Below are positions 1-39,488 of a stretch of DNA of 64,000 bases, in pieces. The notes under the pieces are model-generated. The model was not told the DNA's origin. It saw nothing but the letters and a program-made list of their open reading frames with translations, and did no database searches. A program made the translations under genes and the position numbers. Source of the stretch: Actinomycetes bacterium (lineage in GTDB: Bacteria > Actinomycetota > Acidimicrobiia > Acidimicrobiales > RAAP-2). Position 1 is the stretch's first letter. Every line of letters starts with the position of its first letter. The stretch covers positions 39,417 through 103,416 of the forward strand of contig JAJXUK010000002.1 of assembly GCA_021782915.1 (NCBI GenBank), given 5' to 3'.

Positions 1-22
1 TCCAGAAGAGGTCAAGTACCAA

Positions 23-911
23 TGTTTCACGTGAAACGCAGAGACGGGCGTGTCGCTTCACGAGCGGCCAGATGCGTGAGGATCCGTGAAATTGCGGGTC
101 TTTCAGTACTGAAGGCTCGTGGTGCTCAGCTCACGCCGGAGTCGCTCAGGGATGTTTCACGTGAAACACCGCTCCGCAAGACCGGACCGTCCAGCTCGAA
201 CAAAATGGTGAGCCGTCGTGGTGGGAGCTTCCCCTGACTGTTCCACGTGAAACACGCCAGCGCGTCAAGGAAGGATGTGAGGCACCGTCCCGGACACTCG
301 ATCCCCGGCAGGGTTCTCGGAGATCCGACCAAGCGTGAGGCCACCCGACAGACTCGCCAGTCGCCCGGTCCAGCGCGCCCGCTGTTTCACGTGAAACATT
401 GCCGCGCAGCGGGCGAGGAACCAGGACTCCGGACTGTGGTGAAAATCAGGGCCGAACCCCCACAACTTCCTTGATCCCGAGTCCAGTGCAGGAGCGCGAC
501 GTTCTCAGCCCTCAGCCACGGGCCGCAGACCAATCGAGGGACGACGCCAGGGGAGTGGTGGTTTCACGTGAAACAGTCCGCCAAGCGGGCGAGGAACCAG
601 GACTCCGGACTGCGGTGAGAGTCAGGACCGAACCCCCACAGCTTCCTTGTTCCCGAGTCCAGTCCAGGAGCGCGACGTTCTCACCCGCGGGCCGCAGACC
701 GACCGAGGGGCGCAGCCAGGGGAGTGACTGTGTCACGTGAAACAGTCCGCGCAGCGGGCGAGAAACCAGAATTCCGGCCCGTGATGAGGGTCAGGGCCGA
801 AGCCCTACTGTCCTCGATCCCGAGTCCAGTCCAGGAGCGCGACGTTCTCACCCGCGGGCCGCAGACCGACCGAGGGGCGCAGCCAGGGGAGTGACTGTTT
901 CACGTGAAACA
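23..911. promoter_or_regulatory. parS: parS centromere array: 7 sites matching TGTTTCACGTGAAACA or near variants
   Basis: Sites at about 23-38, 153-168, 239-254 (TGTTCCACGTGAAACA), 383-398, 560-575, 729-744 (TGTGTCACGTGAAACA) and 896-911. They lie next to rsmG and the origin, as expected for ParB binding sites. Confidence 0.95.
383..911. repeat. Three imperfect tandem repeats of ~167-177 bp, each with one parS
   Basis: Recurring blocks gcgggcgag(g/a)aaccag, gagtccagt(c/g)caggagcgcgacgttctca, gggccgcagacc and gccaggggagtg. parS sites are spaced 177, 169 and 167 bp apart. Confidence 0.9.
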
Positions 912-912
912 G

Positions 913-1530
913 TCAGAACAGGGGACGTTTGGCGGGAATCCCGCTTCGTCGGGGGAACTGGGGTGGCGTCTCGGCGTCCTTGCGCAGGATGCGGAACTTG
1001 AGGCCATGAACGAAGTCACCCTCATCCACCAAGCCCAGCTCCCTCAGTCCCTTGCCACTCCATCTCTCCTCACGCTCCGGAGGCTCTGAGACGACTAGAA
1101 GACCACCCACGACGAGGAACCGGGCCGCGCACTCGGCGGTCACCGCTGGAGGGCCAAAGGAGCGAGAAGTCACGAGGGGAAAGAGAGCCTCCAGGCCTGC
1201 TGACCTGGCCAAATCCTCGGCCCTACCTTCCTCGACGCGGGCCCGGCCCGGTGCATCCGGCCATGCCAACACCTCGCGCAAGAACGCAACGCGCTTGGCC
1301 ATGGAATCAAGGAGGACGGCTTGGCTCCTCCAGATCTCCAGCAGAACCAGTCCAGGGAGCCCACCACCGCTCCCCAAGTCCAGAAAGGTGCTCGGGGGCG
1401 TCTCCCGACGACTCGCCCACGCCGCCACGAATCCCCTGGCGTGCGAAATCTGCGGCTCGATCGCCCCGGGGCCTAAAAAGCCCCGCGCCCTCGATTCCTC
1501 GAGGGCGCGGGTCAACCAATCAGATGTCAC
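913..1530 (-). CDS. rsmG: 16S rRNA (guanine-N7)-methyltransferase RsmG (GidB)
   Basis: FLDLGSGGGLPGLVL SAM-binding motif, VTSRSFGPPAVTAECAARFL; position next to jag/yidC. Confidence 0.92.
   Translation of the reverse strand: MTSDWLTRALEESRARGFLGPGAIEPQISHARGFVAAWASRRETPPSTFLDLGSGGGLPGLVLLEIWRSQAVLLDSMAKRVAFLREVLAWPDAPGRARVEEGRAEDLARSAGLEALFPLVTSRSFGPPAVTAECAARFLVVGGLLVVSEPPEREERWSGKGLRELGLVDEGDFVHGLKFRILRKDAETPPQFPRRSGIPAKRPLF
1482..1511 (-). terminator. Terminator-like hairpin (13-bp perfect stem, 4-nt loop, followed by GCTTTTT) inside the rsmG 5' coding region
   Basis: Minus strand: CCCGCGCCCTCGA GGAA TCGAGGGCGCGGG GCTTTTTAGG. Confidence 0.55.
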
Positions 1531-1537
1531 GAGACGA

Positions 1538-2461
1538 TTATGCCGGGCTCACCACCACGAAGCGGCGAGGCTCCTCGCCCTCGGAGCGGGTCACGACTCC
1601 ACTTACCTCCGTCAAAGCGTCGTGAACGGCCTTGCGGTCTGCAGCCGACATCGGCTCAAGTGCCCTCTCCTCACCGGTCTCGAGAACCTCGGCGGCCACC
1701 TTGCTGGCGAATCGGCCCAGAGCCTCGACACGGCGCTCCCGGTAGCGGGCGACGTCCACGAGGATCCGATCCGTGCGCCCCGGTGACTTGGACTGAACCA
1801 CCGTGCGCGTGATCTCCGCGAGGGCCTGGAGCGTCGTCCCACGAGGGCCGACCAAGATGCCCAGCTCCGTGGGGGGATTCGCGTCAATCGCGATCTCCAC
1901 GGTCTCCTCGTCCAATTCGCGGACCGAGACCTCCGCTTGAATGTTCATCGACTGAAGCAGGCCCTCGAGGAAGCCCTTGGCAATCGTCCCCTGCTCAGCC
2001 AGAGAGATTCCCTCTGCCATGTTTTCCTCCTTGTTGACCGATTTCTCTTCCCGGGCCCGTGGCACGTCCTTGGCGCCTTCGGCTCTCTTGGCCTGAGGTG
2101 ACGTGGTGGCCGTCTTGGCCCCACCCCTGGCACCGGACTTGCGGGTTCTGGAACCCGGTGCTCCCTCAGTCTCACCGCTTCCGAGTGACGTCTTCTCTGA
2201 CATCTTCTCGGTGCGCGGCTTGGTGCTGCGAGCGCCACGACGCTCCTCGCGGGCTCCGCCCCGGCGCGGGCGCTTGGGCCGCGGCGCCGTGGGCCGAACC
2301 CGGGCGCGAACTCGGGCCTCACCCTTGACTCGCCCGAACAGTCCCTGGCGTGGTTCTTCCAGGATCTCTACTTCGGCGTCATCACGGTGCACACCCAGAT
2401 GGGCCAGGGCACGTTCGGTGGCCTCATCCACGGTCTTTCCAGTGGTCTCAATCCATTCCAT
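1538..2461 (-). CDS. jag: Jag/KhpB family RNA-binding protein (Jag-N, KH, R3H)
   Basis: N-terminal WIETTGKTVDEATERALAHLGV...VEILEEPRQGLFGRVKGEARVRARV (Jag-N); KH domain NPPTELGILVGPRGTTLQALAEI; R3H-like LEPMSAADRKAVHDAL. Confidence 0.92.
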   Translation of the reverse strand: MEWIETTGKTVDEATERALAHLGVHRDDAEVEILEEPRQGLFGRVKGEARVRARVRPTAPRPKRPRRGGAREERRGARSTKPRTEKMSEKTSLGSGETEGAPGSRTRKSGARGGAKTATTSPQAKRAEGAKDVPRAREEKSVNKEENMAEGISLAEQGTIAKGFLEGLLQSMNIQAEVSVRELDEETVEIAIDANPPTELGILVGPRGTTLQALAEITRTVVQSKSPGRTDRILVDVARYRERRVEALGRFASKVAAEVLETGEERALEPMSAADRKAVHDALTEVSGVVTRSEGEEPRRFVVVSPA

Positions 2462-2466
2462 GCGGA

Positions 2467-3399
2467 CTAATGCTTTCTCTTGCGCTTCGACTTTGACCGC
2501 GGGTGAGGCGGTGGCTTCATAGTTGAGGGTTTCGCGGTGTCGCTGTCGGCCGTCGGCTTCTCGGGGGCCGGCTGCTCGGATTTGCTCGCCGATGGGATGG
2601 CCTTCTCACCGGCCTTGTTCGGGTTCGACACTCCAGTGCGGAACATTATGTCCTGAGTAATTATGCGAATGATCGTAGAAATAATCATATACAGGACGAC
2701 GGCCGTGGGAATCACCAGGTAGAAGTAGGCGAAGAACACGGGCAGCAGGCGTTGCATCGTGAGCTGCTGACTCGGAATCGCCTGGCCGGACTTTCGATTC
2801 CGATTGTTCATCTGGGCCATCTGGAAGTACTGGAGGCCCACCGCCGCGGCCACCATCACGTAGAAGGGGAGTGCGGCACCAAAAGAACCGTGGCTGGCCA
2901 GGGGCTTAAGGTTGAAGTCCATGCCGAAGACGTTGATCTGACCGTTGGAGGCGATCAGGTTGTGGTACATCTTCGAGCCGGTCGGGATGTAGCGCGGTTG
3001 AGCGAGGCCCGCCGCCGTCTTGTTCGCCAGGCCACGAATGACGCTGTAGAGAATGAAGAGGAACGGGGCCTGCAGCAGAACGGGCAGACATCCCCCAATG
3101 GGGTTCGCGCCCTCTTCGCGATACAGACGCATCAGCTCCTCATTGAGGACTTGACGGTTCTCCGGCCCCTTGTACTTCAGCTGGAGTTTCTTGATCTCCG
3201 GTTGGAGCTTCTGCATCGCCATCATCGAGCGCGTGCTCTTGACCGTGAACGGCGTCAGCGCGCCCATGATCACGATCGTGAGCAGGGTGATCGCGACGGC
3301 GTAGTTGGGGATCAGCCCGTAAAAGAAGGCCAGGAGCCAGCCGAAGAGGTGAAAGATTGGCTGAAAGATTGAACCGACGGTATGGAAAAGCGACGACAT
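2467..3399 (-). CDS. yidC: Membrane protein insertase YidC/Oxa1
   Basis: TVKSTRSMMAMQKLQPEIKKLQLKYK, NPIGGCLPVLLQAPFLFILYSVI; synteny. Confidence 0.96.
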   Translation of the reverse strand: MSSLFHTVGSIFQPIFHLFGWLLAFFYGLIPNYAVAITLLTIVIMGALTPFTVKSTRSMMAMQKLQPEIKKLQLKYKGPENRQVLNEELMRLYREEGANPIGGCLPVLLQAPFLFILYSVIRGLANKTAAGLAQPRYIPTGSKMYHNLIASNGQINVFGMDFNLKPLASHGSFGAALPFYVMVAAAVGLQYFQMAQMNNRNRKSGQAIPSQQLTMQRLLPVFFAYFYLVIPTAVVLYMIISTIIRIITQDIMFRTGVSNPNKAGEKAIPSASKSEQPAPEKPTADSDTAKPSTMKPPPHPRSKSKRKRKH

Positions 3400-3402
3400 C
3401 GC

Positions 3403-3648
3403 TCAGTGCTCCTTGTCTGCCTTCTCGGGCACGAGGTCGATGCCGTGCGGACCAAGGGGTCGACACCGACTGATGCGGCGCACGGCCAGGACCGAACCCC
3501 GCCGTGCGCCATGGATTTGAACGGCCTCGAGCGCGTAGTTCGAGCACGAGGGATAGAAACGACACGGCGAAACACGTGCGCCGGTGAGTTTCTGGTAGAA
3601 GCGGATAAGCCGCACGAGGGCTCGAGTGGGCGCCGACTCAGCAGACAT
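3403..3648 (-). CDS. yidD: Membrane protein insertion efficiency factor YidD
   Basis: LIRFYQKLTGARVSPCRFYPSCSNYALEAVQIHGARRGSVLAVRRISRCRPLGPHGIDLVPE. Start set at the internal Met (ORF extends to 3693). Confidence 0.92.
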   Translation of the reverse strand: MSAESAPTRALVRLIRFYQKLTGARVSPCRFYPSCSNYALEAVQIHGARRGSVLAVRRISRCRPLGPHGIDLVPEKADKEH

Positions 3649-3961
3649 CGGCTCGCTCGAGTGAGCGCTGGAGGTGGACGCGAAGTTCGTCATAGGTCAG
3701 ATCCCTGCCGGGCCCTTCAACCTTGACCAGATAAAATCCCTGATCAATTAGGTTGAGCTGCTCATCAAACAACGAGCGCAGCCGGCGCCGGAGTCGATTT
3801 CGCACCACCGCGGAGCCAGTCTTGCGACCGATCGCGTAAGCCACATTCACTCCGGCTTCCGCACCCGCCACGAAGGTGATCCTCAGCGGTCCGCTGCGGC
3901 CCCGTGACGTCGGGTGGGAGAACTGGGCGAACTGGCGTCGGGTGCGAACCCGACCAGGCAT
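3638..3961 (-). CDS. rnpA: Ribonuclease P protein component
   Basis: AYAIGRKTGSAVVRNRLRRRLRSLFDEQ; between rpmH and yidD. Confidence 0.93.
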   Translation of the reverse strand: MPGRVRTRRQFAQFSHPTSRGRSGPLRITFVAGAEAGVNVAYAIGRKTGSAVVRNRLRRRLRSLFDEQLNLIDQGFYLVKVEGPGRDLTYDELRVHLQRSLERADVC

Positions 3962-3965
3962 TCTC

Positions 3966-4100
3966 CTAGACCGTCAACTCGTGTCGGCCCTTGTTACGGC
4001 GAGCCTTGAGCACCGCGCGCCCCGCGCGGGTGCGCATGCGGGCCCGGAAGCCGTGGGTCTTGGCCCTCTTTCGGCTGTTGGGCTGATACGTACGCTTCAC
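3966..4100 (-). CDS. rpmH: 50S ribosomal protein L34
   Basis: Hand translation with GTG start: (M)[43 protein letters not shown]. Absent from the supplied ORF track because of length. Confidence 0.96.
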
Positions 4101-4313
4101 AGAAACCTCATCTCACAGGTGATCGAACAACGACGCCTTGGCTCCTGGAGCCGGCAATCGCCACGTAGACGACGAATCTTACCCGACCGGGCACCGTCCT
4201 CGGCACGGCTGCGAAAACGGGAGTATGGTGACTGCCCCGGGGGCACCTTCAGCGTCCTCGAGGCTGAAGTCGTGCTTGTGGAAAATGTCGGTCGTGGGCT
4301 GTGGAGGAATATT

Positions 4314-5684
4314 GTGCGCAGCGGGGACGAGGTCTGGTCGGCAGTACGCGATTCCTTACGTGGCAACGCATCCGAGGCCGTGTGGTCCGCGGGGCTGAAC
4401 ACACTGAGCCTTGTGGATTACCGAGACGACGAGCTAATCATCGGCGCCCCCAATCGTATTCAGCTCCAGCGAGTTCAACAGCGGTACCTGCCATTCATCA
4501 CCGAGCAAGTTCGGCAAGTCGTTGGCGATCACGTGAACGTCTCGTTAACACTGAGTGACGTCGCGACGGATGACTCCACTGGTGACGTCGTGATGCGAGA
4601 GCCCGCGCGCGAGGAGATCGTGGCGACCTTCGCGGCCAGTGTCGACCGACCCGCTCGCCTGGATCCGCGCATGACGTTCGACTCCTTCGTTCCTGGACCC
4701 TCCAATCGTCTCGCCTTCGCCGCGGCCCAATCTGTTGCTGAAACACCTGGTCGGGCGTATAACCCGCTCATGATCTACGGGAACTCGGGTTTGGGCAAGA
4801 CGCACTTGCTTCACGCCATCGGCAACTACGTGCACGAGAACTACCCCGGCCGAAAGGTGCTGTACGTCTCCACCGAGACGTTCTTGAACGACTTCATTCG
4901 CGCAATCCAAACGCGCACGCAACTGGCACTGCACGAGCGCTACCGCGAGAACGACGTACTGCTCATCGACGACATCCAGTTCATGGAGACTCGTGGCGAG
5001 ACGTTCCACGAAGAGATCTTCCACACATACAACTCCCTGCACGGTGAGGGAAAGCAGATCGTCCTGACCTCAGATCGTTCCCCGCGCGACCTCGCGGGTC
5101 TCCAGGAGCGCTTCCGTAGCCGGCTGCTGCAGGGACTGGTTACGGAGATTGATCAGCCGGACCTCGAGACTCGCATCGCGATCCTGCACTCCAAGTCAGA
5201 GCGAGAGGGTATTGAGCTGCCGCGCGAGGTCGCGGAGTGGATCGCCCAGCGCGTGCGTGACAACATCCGTGAGCTTGAAGGCTCGGTGACGATGTTGCGC
5301 GCCTTCGCCAATCTTCGCCAGGAGCCGATCACCCTCGAGCTCGCGAAGAACCACCTCACCAATCTGGGTCACGATCAGGTTTCGCTGAAGCCCGAGACAA
5401 TCCTGCACGCCGTGTCGGAGTTCTACGGGATCTCCGTCGATGAGATTCGTGGCTCGAAGCGGCTCCGCCCGCTCGTGCACGCGCGACATGTAGCGATGTA
5501 CCTGATCAGGGACCTTCTTGATAACTACTCCTACCCAATGATCGCTCGTATCTTCGATGGGCGCAACCACACAACGGTGATCAGTGGCGTTGAGAAGATC
5601 AAGGAGCAGCTCACCGTCAACAGCGAGCTGCTCAGTCAGATCAACCAACTGAAGCGTCAGCTCCAGGGAGAGATCAAGGTCTGA
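4314..5684 (+). CDS. dnaA: Chromosomal replication initiator protein DnaA
   Basis: NPLMIYGNSGLGKTHLLHAIGNY, LLIDDIQFM, FDGRNHTTVISGVEKI. GTG start at 4314 preceded by GGAGG; the longer ORF start at 3876 is unlikely. Confidence 0.96.
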   Translation: MRSGDEVWSAVRDSLRGNASEAVWSAGLNTLSLVDYRDDELIIGAPNRIQLQRVQQRYLPFITEQVRQVVGDHVNVSLTLSDVATDDSTGDVVMREPAREEIVATFAASVDRPARLDPRMTFDSFVPGPSNRLAFAAAQSVAETPGRAYNPLMIYGNSGLGKTHLLHAIGNYVHENYPGRKVLYVSTETFLNDFIRAIQTRTQLALHERYRENDVLLIDDIQFMETRGETFHEEIFHTYNSLHGEGKQIVLTSDRSPRDLAGLQERFRSRLLQGLVTEIDQPDLETRIAILHSKSEREGIELPREVAEWIAQRVRDNIRELEGSVTMLRAFANLRQEPITLELAKNHLTNLGHDQVSLKPETILHAVSEFYGISVDEIRGSKRLRPLVHARHVAMYLIRDLLDNYSYPMIARIFDGRNHTTVISGVEKIKEQLTVNSELLSQINQLKRQLQGEIKV

Positions 5685-5930
5685 CGCACTGTGGCTAAGT
5701 TCACTACAGGTCTGTCGATTTCTCGTGGGGAGCGCTGGGGTGATCCACATGACTTGAGGGTTGAGTCCCGTGGGTTGAATCACCACACCACGCGTCACCC
5801 ACAGTGGGGTGTGGACAATCTTTCGGCTTCGACCAGGGAGTATCGTCATAACTCCCAGAATCCACAGAACTACTACTGCTATACCTTCTCCATTAATGAA
5901 CCACCAACGTCGCCGTAGAAAGGCCCACGG
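5685..5930. other. oriC: Candidate oriC (dnaA-dnaN intergenic)
   Basis: DnaA-box-like 9-mers: TGATCCACA (5741-5749), TTGTCCACA on the minus strand (5810-5818), GAATCCACA (5858-5866), plus an AT-richer stretch before dnaN. Confidence 0.65.
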
Positions 5931-7031
5931 ATGAAGTTCAGATCAGAACGGGACCTCCTCGTAGAGGCCCTTAGTGCCGCTAGTCGTGTGGTCGCCTCAC
6001 GATCGGTTGGCGCAACCTCGGGCATCCTCCTATCGCTCACGGGTAATCAACTCGTGGTGACTGGCACCGATCTCGACATCACGGTTCGCACCACGGTTGA
6101 CGTGATCGGACTCGAGGACGGCGCGGCCGTGGTGCCGGCGCGCCTCGTGGTCGACGCGGTGCGCTCACTTGAGCCGGGTGCGGTCACCGTGAACGCCCAG
6201 GACGAGACCGTTGAGCTCACCCTTGGTCGAGCCAAGTTCTCACTGCGCACGTTTGCAGTCATCGACTACCCGAACCTTCCCCCAGTCACGGGGGTGGTGA
6301 TGGGCGTGCCCGCACTTGATCTGGTGCAGGGCATCAATCAGGTGGTGCGGGCCGCAGCGACGGATGACGCCCGCCCGCTGTTGACTGGAGTTCTCTTCAC
6401 GACCGACGACGGGATGCTCCGCCTCATCGCAACCGACTCGTATCGTCTCGCCGTTCGTGACGTGCCGAGCGTGCGCAACCTAATTGGCACCAGCGACGTG
6501 TTGGTGCCCGCCCGGGCACTTCAGGAGCTCCAACGGGCGGCGGCGAACTTGGTGGCCGATTCGGAGATTGGCGTCACACTAACTGACTCTGAGATCTCAT
6601 TCATCGTAGGAGCGACATCCATTTCTTCGAGATTGATCGATGGCAACTACCCGTCGGTGATGCAACTAATCCCCGCGAACTACCCAAATCAACTTCGCGT
6701 GGCCAAGGACACCCTGTTGGTGTCATTGCGCCGTGCGAAGTTGCTCGCGAAGGACTCCACCTCCTCGGTTCGTCTCGCGATGCACGAGAAGAACATTGAG
6801 ATTCGTACCCAGAGCCATGACGCGGGCGACGTCGAAGACAACGTCGATGCCGACTACGCCGGCGAGGACTTGAGCATCGCCTTCAACCCCACGTTTCTGA
6901 TAGACGGCATCGAGGCGGTCTACGGCGACGAGATCATCCTGGAGATGTCGGACTCGGTGCGTCCCGCCATGGTGCACGGGGTTGACGACTCGCAGTTCCG
7001 GTATCTCCTGATGCCGGTGCGAGTGCAATAG
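5931..7031 (+). CDS. dnaN: DNA polymerase III beta subunit (sliding clamp)
   Basis: MKFRSERDLLVEALSAASRVV..., C-terminal YLLMPVRVQ; synteny. Confidence 0.96.
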   Translation: MKFRSERDLLVEALSAASRVVASRSVGATSGILLSLTGNQLVVTGTDLDITVRTTVDVIGLEDGAAVVPARLVVDAVRSLEPGAVTVNAQDETVELTLGRAKFSLRTFAVIDYPNLPPVTGVVMGVPALDLVQGINQVVRAAATDDARPLLTGVLFTTDDGMLRLIATDSYRLAVRDVPSVRNLIGTSDVLVPARALQELQRAAANLVADSEIGVTLTDSEISFIVGATSISSRLIDGNYPSVMQLIPANYPNQLRVAKDTLLVSLRRAKLLAKDSTSSVRLAMHEKNIEIRTQSHDAGDVEDNVDADYAGEDLSIAFNPTFLIDGIEAVYGDEIILEMSDSVRPAMVHGVDDSQFRYLLMPVRVQ

Positions 7032-39121: not shown

Positions 39122-39488
39122 GTCCCATCAACTTCAGATCCAGCGCGCCGGACACGTGGCTCTCCGCACCGGCGCGGCTCGGCCGGTCAGGCAGGGGATC
39201 GTCCTCACGCGAGCGCCACGACCGAGCGCTGGCGCTCGGAGCGATGAGTCGGACGAGTCTGGCGACACTCCTCGCTACCTACGGAGTTGGCCCCAGGACT
39301 CAGGCGACGCGCGTCTCGCGGGGCCGACTCCAGCCTGAGCCGATCGGTGACCCGCAGACCCTTGGTCGTGCTCGTCAAGATCGACGTGTGCCAGGGCACC
39401 AGGTGGTCGTCGGACGTCGGCCCGCCAGTCCGGCGTCGCGCGAACGCGATGTCTAGTCTGTAGGCAATCACGGTCGCGGAGGTGCCCT

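Follow-up and report, generated by a model that had tools for sequence, protein, structure and literature searches.

A compact parS array between rsmG and parA in an Acidimicrobiaceae genome: a likely chromosomal centromere whose middle may grow by recombination between its own sites

The rsmG-parA intergenic region of this genome is filled by an array of seven 16-bp parS sites, at positions 23 to 911 of the window, i.e., the whole 64-kb stretch of DNA that was analysed, whose base 1 is base 39417 of a 103-kb contig. The first-pass annotation had described seven near-perfect ParB sites, and all seven were recovered on the plus strand with the pattern TGTTTCACGTGAAACA at no more than one mismatch; in shuffled sequence the chance level for this pattern is 0.03 matches per 64 kb at up to three mismatches. 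Three sites are perfect (site 2, 153-168; site 4, 383-398; site 7, 896-911) and four carry a single mismatch, which falls on the last base of site 1 (23-38, TGTTTCACGTGAAACG), in the left arm of sites 3 (239-254, TGTTCCACGTGAAACA) and 6 (729-744, TGTGTCACGTGAAACA), and on the first base of site 5 (560-575, GGTTTCACGTGAAACA). The two left-arm changes reported earlier are thus real, but as a total of imperfect sites they fall short by two. With seven sites within 0.9 kb, the density reaches 7.9 per kb. Site 7 adjoins the rsmG stop codon as previously described, ending at 911 with one base between it and the stop (915-913, minus strand), and sits inside a 24-bp perfect palindrome (892-915) that includes this codon. 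No Rfam match was obtained within the array, and the sole match within positions 1-6000 (2104-2149, E = 0.45) was dismissed as chance-level.

To the right, the array is bordered by rsmG (gidB; 913-1530, minus strand), whose best family match is TIGR00138 at E = 1.5e-13, under the curated cut-off, and the local gene order is jag-rsmG-parA-parB. Both parA and parB, which had been expected leftward, were found just left of the window: the parA ATG lies 62 bases from window base 1, and parB (G000:C14:37947-38483, minus strand; TIGR00180, E = 2.7e-55) lies 0.8 kb from the window. The two genes overlap and share the strand of rsmG, forming an operon that adjoins the array. Judged by its sequence, ParB is a canonical family member with predicted CTPase motifs and a helix-turn-helix: it aligns to the solved structures of Caulobacter ParB (6t1f) and B. 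subtilis Spo0J (6sdk), and the alignment covers GERRWRA, ENxxR (here ENLHR) and GKSR..V.N.LRLL, so that the CTP-binding and helix-turn-helix regions are kept. A full-length SMC gene (TIGR02168, E = 4.8e-255) is also present in the genome. Rightward of the array, the open reading frames read as rsmG, jag, yidC, yidD, rnpA, dnaA, dnaN, recF and gyrBA. The distance from the array to dnaA and dnaN is approximately 3-5 kb, gyrBA being farther out, and based on this neighbourhood the array is origin-proximal. DnaA-box-like sites (TTNTCCACA) occur near the dnaA start and just downstream of dnaA (4277-4285 and 5810-5818); as such sites are few, the origin itself is not clearly marked.

At up to three mismatches, a scan of the genome (a 2.15-Mb draft MAG of 84 contigs, 97% complete and thus with a few percent unseen) returned no parS-like site outside the array, which is therefore the only cluster found; the reversed pattern, used as a control in the same genome and at the same threshold, gave three matches. 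The first-pass annotation had stated that its reading would fall if parB were missing or if many equivalent sites lay elsewhere; parB is present, and the scan found no other site. The array is very likely the chromosomal parABS centromere of this Acidimicrobiaceae MAG, one of an ordinary kind, with ParB loading at several sites. We infer that the seven sites, grouped in a single 0.9-kb segment a few kb away from dnaA, would load ParB-CTP clamps, and that the loaded clamps would slide and condense the flanking DNA, ParA would pull the ParB-loaded region and SMC would be recruited from a single point. ParB at the array would probably also feed back on parAB transcription. The role of a high-density loading platform, as proposed earlier, would be plausible. 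Some redundancy is to be expected, since C. glutamicum grows normally with one parS (PMC7083940); P. aeruginosa likewise needs only a single parS for segregation (PMC4368675).

The same arrangement is seen across the genus. When ParB is compared, the closest relatives are MAGs of uncultivated Acidimicrobiaceae/Actinomycetes (top ParB identity 87%), and 85 of the 99 genus genomes carry one to eight parS sites at no more than one mismatch; other genera of the wider class usually have none to three. In approximately 70 congeners compared, all sites are confined to the rsmG-parA gap, with two to nine per locus. This gap spans 79-2564 bp (median 714) among 63 distinct congener loci and holds two to eight sites at up to two mismatches, or nine in L068 once a third mismatch is permitted. 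In 42 of the 63 loci, only 0-1 bp separates the rsmG-side end site from the rsmG stop, and in 49 the parA-side end site ends 102-105 bp before the Met of the parA MRVFAV start. A second commonly occupied position, taken by site 2 in the window, lies approximately 235 bp upstream of this Met.

Several further features of these loci were observed. A longer palindrome often encloses the rsmG-abutting parS and takes in the rsmG stop and last codons, as in L061 and in L042, where it is perfect over 40 bp (24 bp in the window). Two congeners with no site at one mismatch or fewer (G072 and G131) carry two-mismatch sites such as TGTTCCACGTGGAACA, and this variant occupies most or all sites of the array in L180, L181 and L182, as if by concerted change. 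The parS-less congeners G048, G130 and G148 (L191, L189 and L190) were rejected as true losses, as parA is cut there by the contig end, and G151, where no parA match was found, likewise counts as a gap and not as a proven loss. The compared genomes are draft MAGs, and as those of G048, G130 and G148 end inside parA beside the array, MAG parS counts are undercounts.

Between species, the spacers are unrelated: when those of the window were searched against the relatives, no match was found, even in its sisters on the tree (L070 and L074). The sites and the ends of the array are thus conserved, whereas the DNA between the sites is replaced. Perhaps the extra parS are passive by-products, i.e., short repeats in a permissive location that were multiplied by drift, their number bringing no benefit. 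The range of two to eight sites across related species would fit such an origin, as would the findings that C. glutamicum and P. aeruginosa manage normal growth or segregation with a single site and that Caulobacter tolerates new parS mainly near its native cluster (PMC5815017). Nevertheless, drift is an unlikely explanation: most sites remain within one mismatch although the spacers have diverged past recognition, which argues that individual sites are under selection, and in the lineages that switched to the variant site most or all sites of the array have switched.

The parA-side end of the array adjoins a predicted promoter. A consensus -35 hexamer, TTGACC (10-15, minus strand), lies 7 bp downstream of site 1 in the direction of parA, and a predicted -10 element, TTGAAT (L009 9404-9409), falls immediately outside the left edge of the window. 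In 58 of 74 congener loci, exactly 7 bp separate the parA-proximal parS from a downstream TTGAC, and in as many TTGAAT comes at a fixed spacing after TTGAC; 13 of the 74 (including L066 and L078) have no TTGAC at that spot. Numerous other genera of the family, and some of the class, carry TTGAC downstream of the proximal parS at a distance of 9-14 bp. Because this parS has a fixed place at the predicted parA promoter, ParB may feed back on parAB, and we lean slightly towards the view that the parA-proximal site, held 7 bp upstream of the -35 box, would let ParB repress its own operon. ParB is known to repress the genes beside parS3/parS4 in P. aeruginosa (PMC7022226), and a mycobacterial parS overlaps the -10 element of the gidB promoter (PMC2346475).

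Taken further, these same observations could make the array mainly a transcriptional operator: its sites would chiefly regulate parAB and shield it from the rsmG operon, and a single site would be enough for segregation. The fixed promoter spacing, its recurrence in related genera and both precedents speak for such a role, but an operator requires one or two sites and not seven. Moreover, both the number of sites and the spacing in the middle of the array change freely, many of the sites are hundreds of bp away from the promoter, and since no other parS was found in the genome, a working parABS would have to use these sites for segregation as well. A mainly regulatory array is thus quite improbable, and a centromere with a promoter-anchored end site is the preferred reading.

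A feature absent from the first-pass annotation is that sites 4-7 lie in an imperfect tandem repeat (382-914, plus strand; 3.1 copies with a period of approximately 167 bp, range 167-177 bp) of the form parS-X-parS-X'-parS-X''-parS. Similarity among the three spacers is 80-88%, and the flanks beyond the outer sites 4 and 7, the former being the outer border of the repeat, are largely unlike. The repeat unit was found neither elsewhere in the genome nor in relatives. Tandem copies in a MAG could in principle be an assembly artefact, and the three congener drafts that stop inside parA indicate that the region troubles assemblers. However, the copies differ by 11-15%, the flank is different at each site and arrays of this kind recur across dozens of independent assemblies, so that an artefact is extremely improbable.

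Unequal recombination between two parS copies would be expected to leave just such a tandem duplication, with parS at both borders. Direct spacer duplications, with units of approximately 65 to 190 bp, are found at nine congener loci. Inverted ones would also be expected if the palindromic parS recombined both ways; none was found among the congener loci. On a tree of ParA and RsmG, at least 26 changes in site number and seven changes in duplication state are counted, and clear sister contrasts include L081, with one extra unit of approximately 110 bp, against L072/L118, and L063/L055 against L043. It appears likely from these patterns that the length of the array changes through unequal recombination between parS copies, which would leave the outer sites fixed and the middle variable. 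The duplications in L041, L048 and L117 run past parS; parS is therefore not always the breakpoint, and the proposed mechanism is not universal.

Adjacent sites in relatives are sometimes much closer than in the window. Among spacings of 60 bp or less, 54 of 64 are 34-39 or 44-49 bp, with a few at 26-27 bp. Such spacings correspond to approximately 2.5, 3.5 and 4.5 helical turns, i.e., to opposite faces of the DNA (e.g., L034, L035, L058, L097 and L108). In a post hoc test, close pairs were phased in other Acidimicrobiia (R = 0.61, p~0.003) and more weakly, at a different phase, in other Actinomycetota, so that helical phasing among close parS pairs in relatives is suggestive only. The window's own spacings (86-177 bp) show no phasing. 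Taken together, the centromere could tentatively be likened to a miniature satellite array, in which parS sites would be the recombination seams, units would be gained or lost per lineage, the outermost sites would remain anchored, one at the rsmG stop and the other at the parA promoter, and closely paired sites in Acidimicrobiia would tend to lie 2.5, 3.5 or 4.5 turns apart.

The expansion of bacterial centromere regions is a stated open question (PMC5815017). A genus with dozens of species and two to nine parS in one short gap offers snapshots of expansion along a tree, and recombination at parS would provide a testable mechanism for it. In B. subtilis, tight parS clustering is thought to prevent Smc collisions (PMC8357415), and an array that would be a natural single-point loading site for ParB and SMC is a system in which to ask why clusters stay tight. 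In addition, the promoter-anchored parS provides a system for ParB feedback on parAB.

In the F plasmid, sopC is a tandem array of sites for the centromere-binding protein, built of 43-bp units downstream of sopAB. Both it and the window array are tandem, but sopC belongs to a plasmid and differs in protein and site. For chromosomes, the first-pass annotation regarded parS sites as usually spread over tens of kb, which holds for B. subtilis and C. glutamicum but not for the compact clusters of M. xanthus and Caulobacter. The four strongest parS of B. subtilis are approximately 5, 13 and 39 kb apart (for parS spread, see jointly PMC5815017, PMC7083940 and PMC3899335). The ten sites of C. glutamicum (parS1-10) lie 73 kb from oriC (PMC7083940); this system is likewise actinobacterial and origin-proximal, with the same 16-bp consensus and with ParB and SMC, but its sites are dispersed over 35 kb. 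Gene order is identical in the gidB-parA-parB region of Mycobacterium, where a parS overlapping a promoter has been proposed as a regulator (PMC2346475), although only two sites (at gidB and inside parA) and no array are present. In Caulobacter crescentus the five strongest parS fall within 5 kb and are located in or close to essential genes (PMC5815017), and as in the window all strong sites are close together near the origin. Searches of the open-access literature for parS with tandem duplication, or for Acidimicrobiia with ParB, returned nothing relevant, and no description was found there of an array limited to a single gene junction whose two ends are fixed and whose middle expands at parS. 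The compactness of the window array, on the other hand, has precedent. Myxococcus xanthus carries 22 parS in 3 kb, approximately 4 kb upstream of parA (PMC3899335). That cluster is larger, has a different consensus (TGTTCCACGTGGAACG) and stands at a distance from parA instead of filling the rsmG-parA gap, but like the window array it is a compact, multi-site chromosomal cluster near parAB, of about equal density (7.2 vs 7.9 sites per kb).
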